64,000 bases of DNA from Desulfurococcaceae archaeon. GTDB taxonomy: Archaea; Thermoproteota; Thermoprotei_A; Sulfolobales; Desulfurococcaceae. The translations under genes were made by a program, and so were the position numbers. The number at the start of each line of letters is the position of its first letter. The stretch's first letter is position 1. Below, in pieces: positions 4,689 to 50,855 of the stretch. The stretch is taken from the NCBI GenBank assembly GCA_023269825.1, contig JAGDWI010000001.1, positions 368,492-432,491 of the forward strand, read 5' to 3'. The notes beneath the pieces were generated by a model. That model saw only the letters and a list, made by a program, of their open reading frames with translations. It was not told where the DNA came from and made no database searches.

Positions 4689-5405
4689 TTACTTGGGAAC
4701 ACTAGGTATAAATAATGAAGGGAACACTAGGTATAAATAATGAAGTGGATGAAAATTATTCATTGTCCGACTCAATATTTGCTTAAATGCAGTAATGATT
4801 TCGTTTTCTAGTATAGAGTGACTCTCGAAGCGTTGATTCGAGTCCTTGGTTAACGTATATACCCAGTATACCATAAAGAGCCCTGTTGTCAATGTTAATA
4901 TAAAGTATGGCAATGTACTTCTATCTGGTACCACTATGAATTCTTCAAGCCTCCCTGTAAATGAAGGTAGTCTCCCTCCTACTTCACCGAGTAGCTCGGA
5001 AATCAGAGGTTTCTCTCTAGCAGAGTTTTCCCTAAAATCTTTGTTTAGGAAGCAAAATACATGAACTATGTACAGTGGTAAGATGATCAATATTGTATTA
5101 GCTAAAGCATTTCTTATTCCGGAGTTAACTACTCGCAGCTCGTTGAGTCTAGATTTAACTGCGTGAATTCTCTTGAATTATGTCCTTCTGAAGCGCTCGT
5201 TCCTTCCATCAACCCATTCGTATACAACGTAGAGGTTAAGGAACATTCCTGCAATAAATAACATCAAATTCGTTGTTAGTAGAATGAACACTGTAGAATG
5301 TACAAGTGTTCCTATGAAACCCATAGTCATTAACAATAAGCCAACACTGCTTAAAATAGCTGGAATAAATGGAAGAATGGCATCCTGTAATCCCTGAACT
5401 TTGAC
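4689..5405 (-). pseudogene. Membrane protein gene broken by one in-frame TAA (DUF4234-like?)
   Basis: On the minus strand one frame is open from 5405 to 4689 except for a TAA at complement(5178..5180). Before the stop it reads two membrane segments and then EWVDGRNERFRRT. After it come FKRIHAVKSRLNELRV, a membrane segment, a soluble loop, another membrane segment (YFILTLTTGLFMVYWVYTL) and TKDSNQRFESHSILENEI. The two halves share a pattern of membrane helix followed by charged (N)xRF, reminiscent of DUF4234-type archaeal membrane proteins; that name is a guess. No clear start codon remains at the 5' end. A single GAA to TAA change would explain the break. The function is unknown. Confidence 0.6.
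4695..4744. repeat. Perfect 25-bp tandem duplication
   Basis: Bases 4695-4719 and 4720-4744 are identical. The repeat lies at the 3' end of a decayed minus-strand gene, so its last codons are probably not original. The unit begins GGGAACACTAGG. Confidence 0.9.
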
Positions 5406-35291: not shown

Positions 35292-37526
35292 CTATTTCCT
35301 CCTGTAAATCAATAGTACTATGCCGATTGCTAGGATTAAAAATAGTACTATGCCGATTGCTAGGATTAAAGCCGCGAGGGATGTTAACGCTAACGATGTA
35401 GTTTTATATACTGTGGTTGTGAATGGCTGTGTTGTCGTTAGTGTTGTAGTTGAGTGTAGAGTGGTTGTAGTTGTTTGAGTCGTTGTCTGCGTAGTGGTGA
35501 GTGTTTGCGTAGTCGTCTTCTCGATCGTTAACTCTAATTTCTCCGTAGCTGTTACTACGCTTACCTGAGTATAGGTGACGGTTACAGGTTTAAGTATTGG
35601 TAGCGGTGTACCAGTGGAGTTGAGTGGTGGATTTATACCAAGTAGAGCTGCTACTGTGGGTGCAATGCTTGTCGAGTGAATCAACCCTAATACACCGTGC
35701 CCTACTCCTGCTCCAACGGCTCCGAAGACAGCCCATAGTTCTGGGTAGTATGGGAGATCCTGGTGAGTGGCTGTTATAGTTGATAACGGGGTAACATTCA
35801 CGAATGGGTTACCTGTAGGCGAGAATCCCCCGTATGGCGCGTAACCTGGTTTTGTACTAATAATAATGTCTCCGGCTCTATCACCATATAATCCAAATGC
35901 TTTAGCCTCACTTCTCTTCATGACAACGCTGAACACTGGTTCACCAGTGTCCGGGTCTCTTACACTTGAGAGAACAGCCATTACTTGGTTAACAACGCTA
36001 TCGTACTGGGATGGATCTACTATGCCTCCCTGCTCTCTCCCCTTTAGATTAATGAATACTTGGTTGTACCCATTATACCATGCTATTGTTTCATTGAGTA
36101 GTATTTGGCCCCCGCTTCTCTTGAGGAAACCTGCTTGCTCAAGTATGTTGTTCACGTAGATTAGTTTAGCAACGGGCCATTGACCGTGATCTGAGACAAC
36201 AATAATCGCTGTATTACTCAAGTCTACCTCTGAGATCAACATTTGAACAAATTCATCAGCCCATTTAATTGTTTTCTGGATGTAAGCCATGTACTTTGGC
36301 GCTGTCGATGGATCATAGTAGGGCATCCTAGGATCTATTAATCCAAGGAATTGGTGGTATACGTTGTCCACTATGGATGTATAGGTCATTAAGAGATTCC
36401 AGTCAGTGTTTCTAATGAGCCACCTAGTGAACTCCATGAAGAACATGTTCGTGTAGTGAACAGTCTCCATGAATGTTTCTTCATCAAACCACTTGTTTGT
36501 TAAACCATAGTAGTCGCCGTCAGTTATGAAACCTGTTTTAACTATTACTTCATTCCACACTCTCCACGCTAGGTTTCTGTCACTAAACCATAGTGGAGAT
36601 GCTTCAAAGGGCCTCGTCAGAGACCTATATACCTTGAAGTTTGAGAGAGATAGGTTCAACGCTTTGAAGAGAGGTGCAATAATGTAAGTTGTCTTCTGGT
36701 AGGTTAAAGTAGTGTTTAAAGGCTTACTCCACTCGCCCTCCTTGAGAACCGCTAGTGCGTTTGAAAGATTCTTCTCCCTAGGTACAATCGCGACTATGTC
36801 GGGGTTGAAGTCACTGTTTGTATCCGCAATGAAGAAGTACCATACCTCATCTCCAAAGTTAAAGGAAGCCTCCCAAGTATTGTAGAAAGTGACGCCGGGA
36901 AGGCTCCCAGTCCACCCACTAGCAGGCGTTATGTTGACATAGTAGGCCCTGGGAATACTCTTATTGCTCGTGTAGAGCGTTGAGTATGTCGGTGAACCCA
37001 TCGATGAATCATACGGGTTGAATACTACTGATTGCTTCAACTTCCCCTCCCAAGCCCATGGATCGCTCTGCGGGAAACCAGCTACTACCGCTTTAAGTCC
37101 CTGCCTATCCACTGTTACCCACAGTGGCTCAGCTAACAGCATTGATCCATTGAACCCGGATATTGTGGAAGTTAAAGGAGTTCCAGGAACATGTATAGTG
37201 TTCCCAGTAATCCCTGTAACACCTGGAGGTGCACCAGTCGATATTACAGCGTGACTTACAGCTGTGGATGATGGAAAACTAACAATCATGCCCTGCGCTA
37301 AGAACCCGTTCTGGAATATATACCTGAAGCCCGGGAGATCTATTGCTAGTTGGCTCTGGTTCAACAGCATACTCCACAACATATCCGCTTTCAACGCATC
37401 TATACTTAATATGACGACTCGCTTAGCTAGCCCACTCGTCTGAGCGAGTGCTGGAGTCGCTAAAATTGATAAGGAGACAATGATTAATAATACCGCGGAG
37501 AAAATCCTCGAGTCCAAGTACTTCAC
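35292..37526 (-). CDS. Membrane-anchored type I phosphodiesterase/nucleotide pyrophosphatase
   Basis: An alkaline-phosphatase-superfamily enzyme outside the cell. A signal peptide covers about residues 1-28. The metal and nucleophile sites are LSIDALKADML and PSSTAVSHAVISTG near the N-terminus, then DNVYHQFLG and VVSDHGQWP, with a late GHGVLGLIHS. The family cleaves phosphodiesters or nucleotides. A Thr-rich stalk (about 660-705) leads to a C-terminal membrane helix. That helix is lengthened by a 30-bp duplication and ends with a basic YRRK. It is a single-gene unit. Confidence 0.85.
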   Translation of the reverse strand: MKYLDSRIFSAVLLIIVSLSILATPALAQTSGLAKRVVILSIDALKADMLWSMLLNQSQLAIDLPGFRYIFQNGFLAQGMIVSFPSSTAVSHAVISTGAPPGVTGITGNTIHVPGTPLTSTISGFNGSMLLAEPLWVTVDRQGLKAVVAGFPQSDPWAWEGKLKQSVVFNPYDSSMGSPTYSTLYTSNKSIPRAYYVNITPASGWTGSLPGVTFYNTWEASFNFGDEVWYFFIADTNSDFNPDIVAIVPREKNLSNALAVLKEGEWSKPLNTTLTYQKTTYIIAPLFKALNLSLSNFKVYRSLTRPFEASPLWFSDRNLAWRVWNEVIVKTGFITDGDYYGLTNKWFDEETFMETVHYTNMFFMEFTRWLIRNTDWNLLMTYTSIVDNVYHQFLGLIDPRMPYYDPSTAPKYMAYIQKTIKWADEFVQMLISEVDLSNTAIIVVSDHGQWPVAKLIYVNNILEQAGFLKRSGGQILLNETIAWYNGYNQVFINLKGREQGGIVDPSQYDSVVNQVMAVLSSVRDPDTGEPVFSVVMKRSEAKAFGLYGDRAGDIIISTKPGYAPYGGFSPTGNPFVNVTPLSTITATHQDLPYYPELWAVFGAVGAGVGHGVLGLIHSTSIAPTVAALLGINPPLNSTGTPLPILKPVTVTYTQVSVVTATEKLELTIEKTTTQTLTTTQTTTQTTTTTLHSTTTLTTTQPFTTTVYKTTSLALTSLAALILAIGIVLFLILAIGIVLLIYRRK
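35311..35370. repeat. Perfect 30-bp tandem duplication inside the phosphodiesterase TM anchor
   Basis: Bases 35311-35340 and 35341-35370 are identical. In the minus-strand gene they encode the ten-residue unit LILAIGIVLF/L twice, in frame, making the final hydrophobic stretch about 30 residues instead of about 20. Confidence 0.92.
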
Positions 37527-38765: not shown

Positions 38766-39269
38766 CCTTCCTCCTTCCATGCTCTTTGAGGAGCCTAAAT
38801 CCATAGATAACTACCTATTCCACGGATTCTAAATTTATTGAGTCAGCTATATAATACTCGTAGATATATCGTGTTGAAAGAATAATCTATAACCTCGCGT
38901 CTGGCTAGTAGTATTCCTATTTTCGTAAAACTCGTTGCTAAGCCCAAGCAAGTAGTACAGGGATTATACCTATCGAGGGAGAACTAGTATTCCTTAATTT
39001 TCCTGAATATCTAAACGCAGTCATTATACACAATAACCCTGGTCTCGGAAGTCAACTAGGTAATATCCGAGGGACTTAACCCTCACAGCGGTGATGGAAC
39101 ATGGCTGAGACAAAGAATATGTAACTTTTTACAAACCAAGAAGTATGCTTCAGTGTCTAAGTAGGATCCTTGTAAAATTCCCATAATTTCACGTGATTCT
39201 AATATAAATAACTGTTATTATTTTAATGGTTATATATTTTGAACGACATAACTCATATCTGTGGGAGTG
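38766..39269. other. Intergenic region with unassigned coding-like fragments
   Basis: No intact gene. On the plus strand between about 38936 and 39080 a 45-codon frame without a start reads STGIIPIEGELVFLNF and PEYLNAVIIHNNPGLG, which looks like gene debris. The next gene's ribosome site GGGAGTG lies at 39263-39269. Confidence 0.3.
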
Positions 39270-40538
39270 TTGAAGTGTTCTTCTATTACCCTCAGAGAGG
39301 ATCCAGAAATATACACTCTCACGCCGTTCATTGAGAAATTTGTAGTTGAGGTGGAGAGATGTAGCACGATCGATTGCTACTTGATCAAATTAGCTACACT
39401 TGTAGATTCCGTAAAGGAACATTTCCCTCGTGAAAGAACTCGTAGAGTACTAGAAAAGATCATGAAGTGCGATGAAGTGCAGGATAGCATGAGCCCCCTC
39501 GCCTATTACAGCAGTATTACTATAGAAATCATTACAAGAGATCCCAGGCATGCACCACTACGTAACTATATAGATATAATCACAACCACCCTGCAAGGTA
39601 TTAAACCAAAATATAAGCAATTAGAGGTAACAAGAGAGCCAACATATAGAATAGAAGAGTGGGAAAAGAGTTCTAAGGAGGCAATAGTAGCTCTCCGAAC
39701 ACAGAGAGGAAATATTGGGCCTATGCGTGAACAAGGAGTAGAGAAGCACGTGGAGAGAAAAACAAGCAACTTCGCTAATTTATTAAAAATTATTGCCGTG
39801 ATCATCATAGCAAGCACCATAGGGGTATTGGCGTACTATGCAAAACCCCCTCTATTCAATTCTATTCAAACTACTCCAACTCAAGCCCCAACACAAGTCG
39901 TAAGCTTCGATATTCAAGCAGTCTGGATTAACGAGTCTAATGGAATACAAAGCATGGTCGTCAAATATAATACGAATGTGTCAGGGCTTATCTTAGAGCT
40001 ACTAGATGAGAGAAACGATGTCGTTTGGAGCACGCAGCTGGAGCTCGGCACAGGTGAAGCAATTCTACGCCTTCCACTAGAACCATACCAAACATTAACT
40101 GAGCCGAGACTCTATACTCTGAGAGCAATATATCAAGGCAGAGTAGTGAAAAATCAGATAGTGAGTATAAATGGAGCTAACATAGAGCTATCTATTGTGA
40201 ACCATTTTGCTTATCATTACTTATACCCGAATAGAACTGGAACAGCAGTTCACATTAGACTGAAAACTAGGAATACAGGTGATGCTCCACTATTCCTGTG
40301 TAGTAGCATATATAGGTGTAAGCCACAGGTGGAAGCGTTTATGAGTAACTACCCCGCTGGAATCGCCATATTGGAACTCAATGAACCAATAGTTGTAAAC
40401 CCAGGCGGAGAGAACCTCATCAATGTGCTTATATACATAGATAGCGTATTCCTGAATAGGACATCTGAGCTAAATATAACCCTGAAAATAGGAGCCATAG
40501 TGAAAAACATAACGATCAAAAATGTAAATTGGGTATAA
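39270..40538 (+). CDS. Membrane protein A of a three-paralogue family: shared N-domain, TM, extracellular beta domain
   Basis: Domain order: an N-terminal cytoplasmic helical domain (about residues 1-125) shared with the proteins at 42903 and 44068-45626, a linker, one membrane helix (IIAVIIIASTIGVLAYYA, about 172-190), then about 225 extracellular residues rich in beta strands and N-glycosylation-type sites. Shared blocks are STIDCYLIKLATLVDSV, MKCDEVQDSMSPLAYY and RDPRHAPLRNYIDII. I do not recognise the family. TTG 39270 is chosen over GTG 39261 because it makes the protein begin M-K-C, like the paralogues (MEC, MKC). It converges on the 40576 gene. Confidence 0.65.
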   Translation: MKCSSITLREDPEIYTLTPFIEKFVVEVERCSTIDCYLIKLATLVDSVKEHFPRERTRRVLEKIMKCDEVQDSMSPLAYYSSITIEIITRDPRHAPLRNYIDIITTTLQGIKPKYKQLEVTREPTYRIEEWEKSSKEAIVALRTQRGNIGPMREQGVEKHVERKTSNFANLLKIIAVIIIASTIGVLAYYAKPPLFNSIQTTPTQAPTQVVSFDIQAVWINESNGIQSMVVKYNTNVSGLILELLDERNDVVWSTQLELGTGEAILRLPLEPYQTLTEPRLYTLRAIYQGRVVKNQIVSINGANIELSIVNHFAYHYLYPNRTGTAVHIRLKTRNTGDAPLFLCSSIYRCKPQVEAFMSNYPAGIAILELNEPIVVNPGGENLINVLIYIDSVFLNRTSELNITLKIGAIVKNITIKNVNWV

Positions 40539-42902: not shown

Positions 42903-43922
42903 CTATTTTATTTTTCTAATTAATGGCACTATGAAGACTTGTATAATCCCTCCTAAAACACCAAGAAAAACACCCGACCCGAATGATAGTTTTAAATACT
43001 GCCTCAGATCTGGATAGTACAAGTTACTCAAAGAGCCCGGTGTCAGGGTATTCTCTATAAGTGAGATAAGTAATTGTAGTTCACTATTTAATTGACTATA
43101 TGTAATAACCAGCCCCAAAAGAAGCATTGTCCCCGTTAATACACTAATGGCTCTCGCGTTCTTCAAGCCTAGAAGAACAGCAAGCCCCACTATTAATCCA
43201 ATAATGTAAATTACAGGGCCAAGCCACTCCCCCATCTTGATTAAATCTGATCCGTATATTGGAGCGGTAATGGAAATAACTGGGAAAAATGAAATACGTG
43301 CTTCCACAAAAAACCAGGGAAGTACAAATCCTACTATAGCCATAATCCAGGACACGAAATAGACTATTCGAGGGGCTAATCCGAGCCCCGAGCTTGGAGC
43401 TTTCCGTTCTAAATGCACTGGGGGAGAAGTATACTCCTCTGTGGGCTCTGCACTTGGTTTGCTTGCCAATTTGACAGGGATGGTATTGTACCTTTTCTCG
43501 AATTGTACGAGCTGAGACCTGATCTCTCGTTCCTCCTGCTCAATTTTATGTGTTGGTGGACGCGTTATTTCTAGTATTTTACTTGTTGATTGTAGCGTCC
43601 CTAATGTTGCTATTAATAAGTTTATGTATCTCTTCACGGGTCTATGTCTTGGATCTGTTAGAGTAAGGTATTCTACTACTTCGATGTGCTCGGCTAGTGG
43701 TCTGAGCGAGTCTCTCACTTCGTTGCACAATAATATTTTTCTGAATACCTCATTGGCTTTATTACCGAATGTTTCTTCTACACTGATGATCAGTGTGTCT
43801 AGCTTCATTAAGTAACAGTCAATACTCTTACATGTAGAAGCGTCGCTAATGAATAATCGGATGGAATCTAAAGCCGTGAATAAGTCAGGATCTGCACGGT
43901 AGTCGATATTTAAGCACTCCAT
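42903..43922 (-). CDS. Membrane protein B of the three-paralogue family: shared N-domain plus four TM helices
   Basis: Residues 1-125 are the shared domain (KSIDCYLMKLDTLIISV, LLCNEVRDSLRPLAEH, DPRHRPVKRYINLL, LEITRPPTHKIE). A charged linker follows, then four membrane helices (from about 190 to 335) with little exposed loop. The name given here is descriptive, since I do not know a family. Start ATG 43922. Compared with paralogue A, the extracellular domain is replaced by a membrane domain. Confidence 0.65.
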   Translation of the reverse strand: MECLNIDYRADPDLFTALDSIRLFISDASTCKSIDCYLMKLDTLIISVEETFGNKANEVFRKILLCNEVRDSLRPLAEHIEVVEYLTLTDPRHRPVKRYINLLIATLGTLQSTSKILEITRPPTHKIEQEEREIRSQLVQFEKRYNTIPVKLASKPSAEPTEEYTSPPVHLERKAPSSGLGLAPRIVYFVSWIMAIVGFVLPWFFVEARISFFPVISITAPIYGSDLIKMGEWLGPVIYIIGLIVGLAVLLGLKNARAISVLTGTMLLLGLVITYSQLNSELQLLISLIENTLTPGSLSNLYYPDLRQYLKLSFGSGVFLGVLGGIIQVFIVPLIRKIK

Positions 43923-44067: not shown

Positions 44068-45626
44068 CTAGGCTAAGTATACGAAAGCGGCATCACCCAA
44101 TACTTCTACCCAGATATACTTGTATCTATATGGTTCGATCTCTGTGGAGATCTCTGAAGCATAGTATTTAACCCACCACTCATTAAACACCGGTGTATAA
44201 AGTCTCGTTATGGGATACGACTTATTGGTTTGAGGGGATACTAGACCAGGGTGGAGATTAAGCATCAGTATTGGGGCATTCTTAGCGTACTCTGAGACAA
44301 GTAGCCCTTTCTCCACTGCGATAGCTTCTGCAATATCTCGGGCAATTGTTGGAGGCAGTGTATCGTTCATGTATTTCTCGAATAATAGGCTTCTAGAGCC
44401 ATATGCAAGTGAAAGCGTTAAATCATGGTAAGTGACTAATTCACCGGAGACCTGGAGTTCAAATACTTTGACATTGCTTGGTGGGTCAAATCTAACTTTA
44501 TATGGTTTTAAGTACTCTATGTAATCTGAGAACTCTGATGGTGGAATACCTGGATTTGTCGCCTCTATAATATATCCTCTATAATATATAATACTCCATC
44601 TATCTCTATACCGGTAACCGCATGTTCAGCGTCTTTGAGTATAATCACGTATACCGGGGTTGCATTCACAGAGATAAGTGCCGTTGCATAGAATAGGGAG
44701 AGATCTATACAGGTACCTCTCTTCTCCCTAAGTACTTCTTCTGGTGCGAGGGCTGGATAATTCACTATGATCTCCAGCGGGAGCGGGCTTTCAATACTTG
44801 AGAGATTTATTTTCCTACCATTAGCTTCACCGTACTTTAGATTCTTCGATGCCCAACTCATTAGCCATAGAACAGCCTCTACTTTGGACTGGGGGATGTA
44901 GCTTCCATATACTTCTCTTCTTATATCCATTAATGTCTGTATACTTGTTACTTTATAGTCTGGAATATATAGCGAGTAACTCGAGGAGTAGCCATAATTA
45001 GACTCCGAATAACTCGGGGTAGATGGCTGGTTTATAGAATTGAATAAGCATATCAATACTAAGATCGTGATGACTGCTATTTGTGTAATAAATATGGCGA
45101 AAGAGATCGCTCTTGTTATACTTATACCGCTACCTTCATCTACACTATCTGCACTATTTTTCTCCACGGCTAGAGCGTTGCTTATCTGTTGTGTCGTGGT
45201 GGCTTCCCCTGGCTCCAGTACGAAGCTATAGTGTGTCTCATCAAGGGATTCCACACGCTTGGACTTAGTTACCTCGAGTAGCTTATCCACAGGCTCCAAC
45301 TCCTTAAGAGTCTTCAATAGTATGTCGAGGTATCTCAGAGTGGGTGCGTGTCTTACATTTGATGCTAGTTCTTCTACTTCATTAATGTAGTTTGCGAGTG
45401 GTCTAAGGGCTTCTCTGAGTTCTTCACATTCCAATATCTTTTCTACCACTTTACTAGCTTTTTCTCTACCATAATAGTCTTCCACACTGTAAAACAAAGT
45501 ATCAAGTTTTGTTAAGTATCCATCAATAGTTCTATATAAAGGAGTCTCCTTCGTAAAGCTCCTGATGAATTGTAGAAATGGATATATATCTTGGGGTACT
45601 CGAGAGTCTGGTATGAGGCACTTCAT
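44068..45626 (-). pseudogene. Paralogue C with transglutaminase-like domain, split by a 14-bp duplication
   Basis: The first frame (45626-44565) encodes the shared N-domain (RTIDGYLTKLDTLFYSV, LRPLANYINEVEEL), a membrane helix near 180-200, and a transglutaminase-like domain with the probable nucleophile in KRGTCIDLSLFYATAL and the His in DAEHAVTGIE. It ends prematurely at YIIEDIL. Removing one copy of the 14-bp repeat at 44562-44589 restores YIIEATNPGIPPSEF and joins the frame to the downstream ORF ending at 44068, giving a protein of about 515 residues. The split may be fixed decay, phase variation or an assembly artefact. Confidence 0.75.
44562..44589. repeat. Perfect 14-bp tandem repeat causing a frameshift
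   Basis: CCTCTATAATATAT occurs twice head to tail (44562-44575, 44576-44589). Because 14 is not a multiple of three, the second copy shifts the reading frame of the minus-strand transglutaminase-like gene. Confidence 0.95.
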
Positions 45627-45710
45627 GCTGTAGGCCCTGAAGGCACACTATGTGTATAGTACCCAATAGGGGTTAAATTAAAAATACTTCTCGGAGTCCA
45701 GGCTACTATT

Positions 45711-48306: not shown

Positions 48307-48498
48307 ATGATTATTTTAATTGGGTTTAGGGAGTTATTGATTTCTAGGTGGCGTTTATTGGAGATACCGAGCTATAGAGTTGGTGTGGAGTATTTAGATG
48401 AGCCTTATAGAAGCCTTGTTAGGGAGTTGTGTGTGGCTCTTCAAAGAGTCTTCATGGATAAGCTTGTTTCTAGTGTTTATATTTGGCTCTCCGTTTAA
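48307..48498 (+). other. Coding-like fragment meeting a truncated methylase head-to-head
   Basis: ATG 48307 opens a 63-codon frame with a natural-looking N-terminus (MIILIGFRELLISRWRLL, then YLDEPYRSLVRELCVALQR). It ends inside the 3' end of the minus-strand methylase. I do not recognise it. Probably the 5' part of a gene cut off by the same rearrangement that truncated the methylase. Confidence 0.3.
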
Positions 48499-49332
48499 TG
48501 CTGGGTCTCCTACTATTATCTTCCTGCCATTGACCTCTACTCCAATAGTCCTATTGCCCTTTTTGATAGTCTTGGCTACCTGTAACTCTAATGGGTTTTT
48601 CAATTGTTCTACCTGGATTTCTATGCCGTTCTCAGTCTTCACAGGGGTCATCCATGCTAGTGTTTCAAACCCCTTCTTGCCCTTCACCCGGGCTAGCCAC
48701 CAGTTTCCTACGAGTGGTGTGTACTTTCCGCAGTATGGGCACTTCACCTCCCATGTTCCAATGTATACTGCTATGTCTTCACCGTATAGCTCCTTGATGT
48801 CTGAGTCTTTCCTGAGCTCTTCGAGGATCCAGTTACCCCACTTCTCCACGTCGCTCACTAACAGCTTCTCGATCTTCTTCCCCACGGCCCACTTTGGGTA
48901 TTCCAGTATAGCGCGTAGGAATACCACGGCTGTTGGTAGTAGCTCTGTGGCTACTACTTCGCCTACTCCTAGTCTAATGGCCTCTAGTGGTATGGAACCG
49001 AAGCCGGCGAAGGGGTCTAGTAGTTTAACCCTATTGATCTTTTCGAGGTATTCCTTACCTAGCACCCTGGTGTTTGAGTTTAAGTAGTGTGGTGTCTTAA
49101 AGAACCTACCACTGCCCCTGTAGCTCGGGTATACTATCCTAGTGAAGCGCTCAACGTCAAAGTCTCTGGGTAGTAGAGAGGCGAGTATAACTGCTCTAGC
49201 AGATGCAAGGGGCTTCCGAGTCCACCAGAAGACCATCTCCCAGAATGGTGGTCTACCAGGACCCTTCTCCTTAGCACTAGCAATATTAACTACTTCAACT
49301 GGAAAACTACCAGATTCTATAAAACTCTGCAA
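48394..49332 (-). pseudogene. N-terminal part of a large adenine-specific DNA methylase (DUF1156/COG1743 type)
   Basis: Residues 1-50 resemble DUF1156 (KEKGPGRPPFWEMVFWWTRK, PLASARAVILASLL). LLDPFAGFGSIPLEAIRLG is the AdoMet motif, and VKCPYCGKYTPLVGNWWL is a treble-clef zinc element. Full-length members of this family have some 800-1000 residues and contain a later NPPY-type motif; here the frame ends after 312 residues, shortly after GDPALNGEPNI. The catalytic motif is lost, so the enzyme is probably dead. A breakpoint near 48480 is inferred. Confidence 0.7.
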
Positions 49333-49724
49333 TTAGAAAACACCTATTGCAATAGAGCGGGCCCTGCAACATTCATAATTAGCAAGCAATACGTTAATAA
49401 AAATTTCAGATACATGGCCATGAGCATTATCAAAATATCATACGAGGACGTTGAAGCACCGATTTATCGACTAATAGTTTTAGCTAATAATTTATCAAAT
49501 GAGTAGTTCAATGCTTTATTTTAGTATAAGAAATGATGTTGAATTAGAGCCTATTATTATACTACTAACTAGCCATGAGGCCGAAACTTTAAGTATCAAC
49601 CAATCTAGAAGGTGACTGGTTGCTAAGAATTTCTATTCAATTAATTATTAGCTATTAAGTAGATTCATTGATTTAAATAGCATTAACAATGGCCTGGCTT
49701 GTTCACACTATGGGGCGATCTAGT
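49333..49724. other. Intergenic region without a supported gene
   Basis: A 35-codon frame from ATG 49510 (MLYFSIRNDVELEP) is the only notable reading frame. It has no ribosome site and no recognisable family. Confidence 0.3.
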
Positions 49725-50252
49725 TGAGAAGAAACGCCAGCAATCGGAGTAGACTATGCAGGATTAGAGCGTGCTAATTCCCGCGGGGATTTAGAGTTAT
49801 TCATCCAATTGGCGTTAAAAGAGTATTATAATAGCTTTGAGCACATTCACAGACTCAGGGAAAGAGCCTCTATAGTTGTTAGTGCCGATATGATAGTATT
49901 ATCCATTCTAGGCAGCTACCTTGTGAGCTAATTGAGCAAAAGTAGATTAGGATCTTCTATTATTTACATTATAATCCCCTCTGCAACAGTGCTTATACTG
50001 GCAAGTATATAATCCTCTCTACGTGTTATATGGCCGTATTACTGGGCCGACGTGGATCCAGAGATATTAATAAAAGCCTATAAAAACAAACAATGGGATT
50101 CTCAAGAAGTCGCGATAGAGCTACTCAGTGCGGCTTCATTTAATGCAAATATACGCGTTATGTACGAAGACTGCATTAAGGCCTCGATCATCGCACTATA
50201 TCTAGGCTTATTATTTATAACTATAGGAGAAGTAATAGCATTAATACTATAG
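49725..50252 (+). pseudogene. Three-TM protein gene with two in-frame TAA stops
   Basis: One plus-strand frame runs from about 49728 to TAG 50250-50252 with TAA at 49929-49931 and 50010-50012. It reads an N-terminal helical part (DLELFIQLALKEYYNSFEHI, HRLRERASIVVSADMIVLSI), a second hydrophobic piece (SSIIYIIIPSATVLILASI) and the last piece from 50052 (DPEILIKAYKNKQWDSQEVA ... ALYLGLLFITIGEVIALIL). The layout of amphipathic helices, a TM pair, a linker and a TM resembles SLATT/Pycsar-TM effector proteins; this is inference. There is no cyclase gene beside it. Confidence 0.6.
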
Positions 50253-50393
50253 GGATTTTGAGAGCCGGATATACTTAAACTTCTTAAAGTCAACTCCAAA
50301 TTTCTGTTCAAACCAAGCAACTACTTTGCCAGGTGCTCTAACCGATTTGGCCACATATGAATGACGGGGTTTAGCAGTCTCTTTTTCCTTCAT
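50247..50393 (-). CDS. 48-residue basic protein, unknown
   Basis: ATG 50393, with GGAG a few bases upstream on the minus strand, opens a 48-codon frame: MKEKETAKPRHSYVAKSVRA, then PGKVVAWFEQKFGVDFKKFK and YIRLSKSL. The basic, low-complexity-free composition and the ribosome site favour a real gene. Its stop codon shares the CTATAG palindrome with the stop of the convergent pseudogene. No family is known to me. Confidence 0.5.
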   Translation of the reverse strand: MKEKETAKPRHSYVAKSVRAPGKVVAWFEQKFGVDFKKFKYIRLSKSL

Positions 50394-50855
50394 GGAACTC
50401 CGCTTCTATATTATTATTTCATACCTTAAATGCCATTCTATAATTATATATTCAAATCCAGCTTTGAAGAGATAGGTGGATGAAACATTATTGAAATCTT
50501 TCTATTTTAAACGCTCTTTAGATATTGATCTAATATCAAAGCTATGTGCTGAGGAGTGATAAATTAGTCATAATCAATGGTTCATTACCTTATAGAGTTA
50601 ATTAAATAGAAAAACCCGTGGAACCAGGGTTTATTCTTTCATCGTCGAGAATCTTGATCCTGCATTGCAGGTCCCTCATTCCTTAAAGTGAGAAGAGTGT
50701 TCGAAACGCTTCTCGTTTAATTATAGACTTGTGGGAAGCCATTGGCGGAGTAAAAATATTTTTAAATAGAATATAAATTACTATTGCTTATCTTCAGTGA
50801 AATCTATGGAGAGCAATGGCATAGACGTGATTGTAATTGCCATGGAAAGCTGATT
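50394..50855. other. Intergenic region without a supported gene
   Basis: AT-rich, no coding frame of note. A short palindrome CCTGCATTGCAGG lies near 50659-50671. Confidence 0.35.

Follow-up and report, generated by a model that had tools for sequence, protein, structure and literature searches.

A gene interrupted by a 14-bp tandem repeat

A gene at 44068-45626 on the minus strand is divided by a short perfect repeat in the window, which is the whole stretch of 64,000 nucleotides analyzed from a Desulfurococcaceae archaeon. TRF finds an array at 44562-44589 that consists of 2.0 copies of a 14-bp unit, arranged head to tail with a 100% match. The first copy, CCTCTATAATATAT in plus-strand writing, occupies 44562..44575. 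The second copy abuts it at 44576..44589 and is identical at 14 of 14 bases, and either of the two may be the added one. The 28-mer formed by the array has a single occurrence in the genome (1.50 Mb in three contigs). Upstream of the ATG, a putative TATA-box-like, AT-rich stretch, TATTTTTAATTTAA, is found at 45673..45686 on the minus strand.

As sequenced, the reading frame (44565..45626, minus strand) encodes 353 amino acids and terminates in ...YIIEDIL* at a TAG at 44567-44565. Translation halts at the same point, ...GVLYIIEDIL*, with two or with three copies of the unit. The two-copy frame thus ends just past residue 350, and the C-terminal 164 residues are lost. With one copy, the gene is translated into 514 residues followed by a stop, the joint reads IIEATNPGIPPSEF, and the downstream third (44068..44561, minus strand) stays open until a stop at 44070-44068. 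A sequence-only reading had proposed a 14-bp tandem in a transglutaminase-like gene, where two copies end translation and one copy joins two ORFs, through bases that are all open in the restored frame, into a protein of about 515 residues. TRF, the profile match described below and the one-copy translation agree with it on each of these points, the figure of 515 being reached when the stop is counted.

Domain architecture and relatives

The one-copy protein comprises, in order, an N-terminal domain, a hydrophobic segment, a DUF553 domain and a C-terminal part, all encoded on the minus strand. The N-terminal domain (residues ~12-125; 45252..45593) has no assigned function. The hydrophobic segment (residues ~167-194; 45045..45128) is, judging from the translation, a probable transmembrane helix. 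It is followed by the DUF553 transglutaminase-like domain, which spans residues 246-367 of the one-copy frame (44512..44891) according to the profile match and the relatives. The protein is probably membrane-anchored, surface-exposed and of the transglutaminase/papain-fold type, and would be located outside the membrane.

The earlier assignment to the transglutaminase-like class was correct, as the sequenced 353-aa frame matches PF04473 (DUF553) at 42.1 bits (E 7.7e-11), covering profile positions 13-112 of 140. The match of the one-copy frame reaches 48.7 bits and extends over positions 13-130 of 140; both frames exceed the curated cut-off of 20.5 bits. A sequence search of the PDB gave no significant match. 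Cys306 and His335 are present and both lie ahead of the cut. The protein resembles the DUF553/PF04473 proteins of Desulfurococcaceae and their relatives in its domain match, in the positions of Cys and His and in a similar C-terminal part, but differs from them in that its frame is broken at the third catalytic position. This position, occupied by Glu350 here and by Asp in the relatives checked, is the last one shared with them before the cut. The one-copy protein also carries three extra residues at the joint compared to the relatives. Given both the Glu for Asp and these extra residues, activity of the one-copy form should not be assumed, and by this comparison the gene may have departed from the usual form even before the duplication.

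Seven relatives from other genomes of the same family and order (L006, L007, L008, L011, L014, L016 and L017) each cross the joint in a single open frame. In most of them, the joint carries the motif LDQ-xLPxxExxDY, and a Y(T/S)PxF-like motif follows ~100 residues later. One of these, L008, whose genome belongs to the same family, has an intact frame of 687 amino acids that contains an N-domain, a transglutaminase domain and a C-terminal end that also matches. Since the relatives are unbroken across the joint and the DUF553 match is longer when the two parts are joined, the one-copy frame is, judged at the protein level, the ancestral one; the relatives are too distant for a comparison of DNA. 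An arrangement of two separate genes can be rejected because each relative has one ORF that spans the joint. Among 32 DUF553 matches listed from 40 genomes of the family, the split gene is the only one with an internal stop.

The consequences of the truncation can be viewed on the AlphaFold2 model of the intact relative L011, which has a mean pLDDT of 75.5 and values above 85 over most of the catalytic domain. The nearest solved folds retrieved by Foldseek are a putative cysteine protease and LapG and, more weakly, transglutaminase, all with low whole-chain TM-scores. In the model, Asp339, the equivalent of Glu350, directly follows a strand (334-338). Beyond it are a helix (347-354) and an alpha/beta module (357-488). 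A truncated product without everything past the third catalytic position would therefore probably be inactive or unstable.

Seven congeners yielded no close orthologue, so that the gene counts as accessory. A search of 60 relatives returned distant homologues only, and a search of the contigs for a relative of the split gene returned none. The loci of nine relatives, all distant homologues, hold no comparable repeat, the locus of L014 having one 9-bp tandem. Viral contigs compared with the repeat and its flank gave no match.

The N-terminal domain, ~110 residues long and without a Pfam match, is common to three neighboring genes, at 39261-40538 (plus strand), 42903-43922 (minus strand) and 44068-45626 (minus strand). 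In each, it is followed by one or more hydrophobic segments and then by a different C-terminal part. A protein of ~170 amino acids with this N-domain adjoins trkH both in the same genome (L024:6802-7317) and in the congener G005 (L061:2331-2828).

The duplication and its possible origins

Perfect two-copy tandems were counted in 887 kb of the genome (about 59%) and in three replicates of first-order Markov sequences with the length and composition of this sample. The Markov expectation is 0.33 at a unit of 11 bp and zero at units of at least 12 bp, while the genome sample contains six tandems with units of at least 12 bp (12, 12, 14, 14, 25 and 30 bp). A chance origin of the repeat is rejected on these counts. 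Only one of the six, the array at 44562-44589, breaks a gene mid-frame, and 400 kb of the congener G005 contains no perfect duplication with a unit of at least 12 bp. Both results lead to the rejection of a genome-wide epidemic of frame-breaking duplications or a pattern of assembly artefacts. No microhomology was seen flanking the ends of the duplication, and the repeat runs for exactly 14 bp.

The part of the gene behind the stop retains the appearance of a coding sequence. Its 164 codons are free of stops in the one-copy frame, whereas the two alternative frames contain 10 and 15. Its codon score is 0.202 bits/codon, compared to 0.192 for the upstream part and a mean of 0.260 (sd 0.067) for other genes in the window. 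Codon usage downstream is as gene-like as upstream, and the downstream part is undecayed. Consequently, the break is either recent or an error.

We consider it likely that a recent, spontaneous 14-bp tandem duplication shifted the frame of an accessory gene in this Desulfurococcaceae archaeon and probably inactivated it. The two copies are perfect and adjacent, the sequence is otherwise unique and in the relatives a single frame runs through the site, as expected for a spontaneous duplication. The original one-copy gene would have encoded the N-domain, the transmembrane helix, the DUF553 catalytic domain and the C-terminal module. Spontaneous duplication of 14 bp would have added the second copy and shifted the frame, so that translation would end just after the third catalytic position. 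The last helix of the domain and the C-terminal module, 164 residues together, would be lost. The extra copy might occasionally be lost again. Within the population sampled, the two-copy allele is presumably either fixed or frequent, although it may be a minor variant.

Mutations of this kind are documented in Sulfolobus acidocaldarius, where tandem duplications of more than 5 bp account for 13 of 163 spontaneous mutations (8%) in pyrE (PMC7785828, Table 6). A 14-bp duplication therefore belongs to an ordinary class of mutation in a crenarchaeon. In both cases a short tandem duplication inactivates, or here probably inactivates, a coding gene, although the pyrE mutations came from laboratory selection on a known gene, while the present case is one event in an assembled genome. 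If the duplication is indeed ordinary, it provides another natural case of a short tandem duplication breaking a crenarchaeal gene. It also calls for caution in annotation, where two partial ORFs are listed in the place of one gene.

An assembly or sequencing error, with a true genome that has one copy and an intact gene, would explain why the downstream part appears fully maintained, and the assembly consists of three contigs with 96.6% completeness. However, at 28 bp the array would fit inside any ordinary read. The five other perfect duplications in the 887 kb, two of them in the window (25 and 30 bp), also fit with real duplications, and we regard an error as unlikely.

The sequence-only reading had further suggested an on/off phase switch. 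Slippage or recombination between the copies would toggle the gene reversibly between one copy (on) and two (off), yielding mixed surface phenotypes. Three points are compatible with switching: the unit length of 14 is not divisible by three, the product is probably located at the surface, and the sequence downstream shows no decay. Short repeat units in large number are typical of contingency loci. In such simple-sequence loci, which vary by slipped-strand events, a change in copy number that is not a multiple of three shifts the frame, as it does here, but the present array has two copies of a 14-mer and not a several-unit array in an ORF or promoter. Two copies are also the minimum left by any single duplication. 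The loci of the intact relatives lack a comparable repeat, congeners yielded no orthologue, and the 31 other DUF553 matches listed are free of internal stops. Moreover, the other perfect duplications sampled in the genome leave genes uncut mid-frame, and ordinary mutation suffices as an explanation (PMC7785828). The proposed switch is thus unsupported and quite improbable, and equally improbable is its fuller form, a reversible 14-bp switch in a surface transglutaminase-like gene of a hyperthermophilic archaeon, the gene belonging to a local set that encodes three N-domain membrane proteins.

Loss of the duplicated copy is nevertheless possible in principle, by analogy with the pneumococcal capsule genes, for which reversible duplications within ORFs are described (Waite et al., 2001, 2003, as cited in PMC4243769). 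There, as proposed here, an in-ORF duplication silences a surface-related gene and can be lost again. According to the citing article, reversion has been reported in pneumococci, whereas the present array is known from one assembled sequence. A limited literature search found no case of duplication-based phase variation in hyperthermophilic archaea; a true toggle would represent this type of variation in a hyperthermophilic archaeon.

The sequenced two-copy gene might itself work, whether its product is the truncated 353-aa protein or recoding carries translation beyond the stop, but this is very improbable. In its favor, the stop lies behind Cys306, His335 and the acidic third catalytic residue, and the upstream part is well maintained. 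Against it, none of the seven relatives ends at that point. A programmed -1 frameshift is rejected because the frame overlap contains no X_XXY_YYZ slippery heptamer for the shift that would be needed. An independent start is likewise rejected because the downstream frame has no ATG, GTG or TTG ahead of 44370, so only its last 100 codons could be initiated independently. On these grounds, the downstream part is unlikely to be expressed separately.

Other features of the window

Two additional perfect tandems are present in the window. A 30-bp tandem at 35311-35370 lies in a PF01663 phosphodiesterase-like gene (35292-37526, minus strand), where it is in frame and doubles the sequence LILAIGIVLF/L within the C-terminal hydrophobic segment. 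A 25-bp tandem at 4695-4745 is located at the 3′ end of an ORF (4689-5090, minus strand) and alters its last residues only.

The window also encodes a conserved DUF2139 protein. Its closest named relatives, at 78% identity, come from a Thermosphaera sp. MAG and a Desulfurococcaceae MAG, in a collection from which the genome of the window may be absent.

About 1.5 kb at 49340-50850 contains no convincing ORF or Rfam match. A DUF1156 gene at 48394-49332 (minus strand) encodes only 312 amino acids and is followed by ~450 bp without a clear gene. It is possibly the truncated relic of a longer methyltransferase-like gene.
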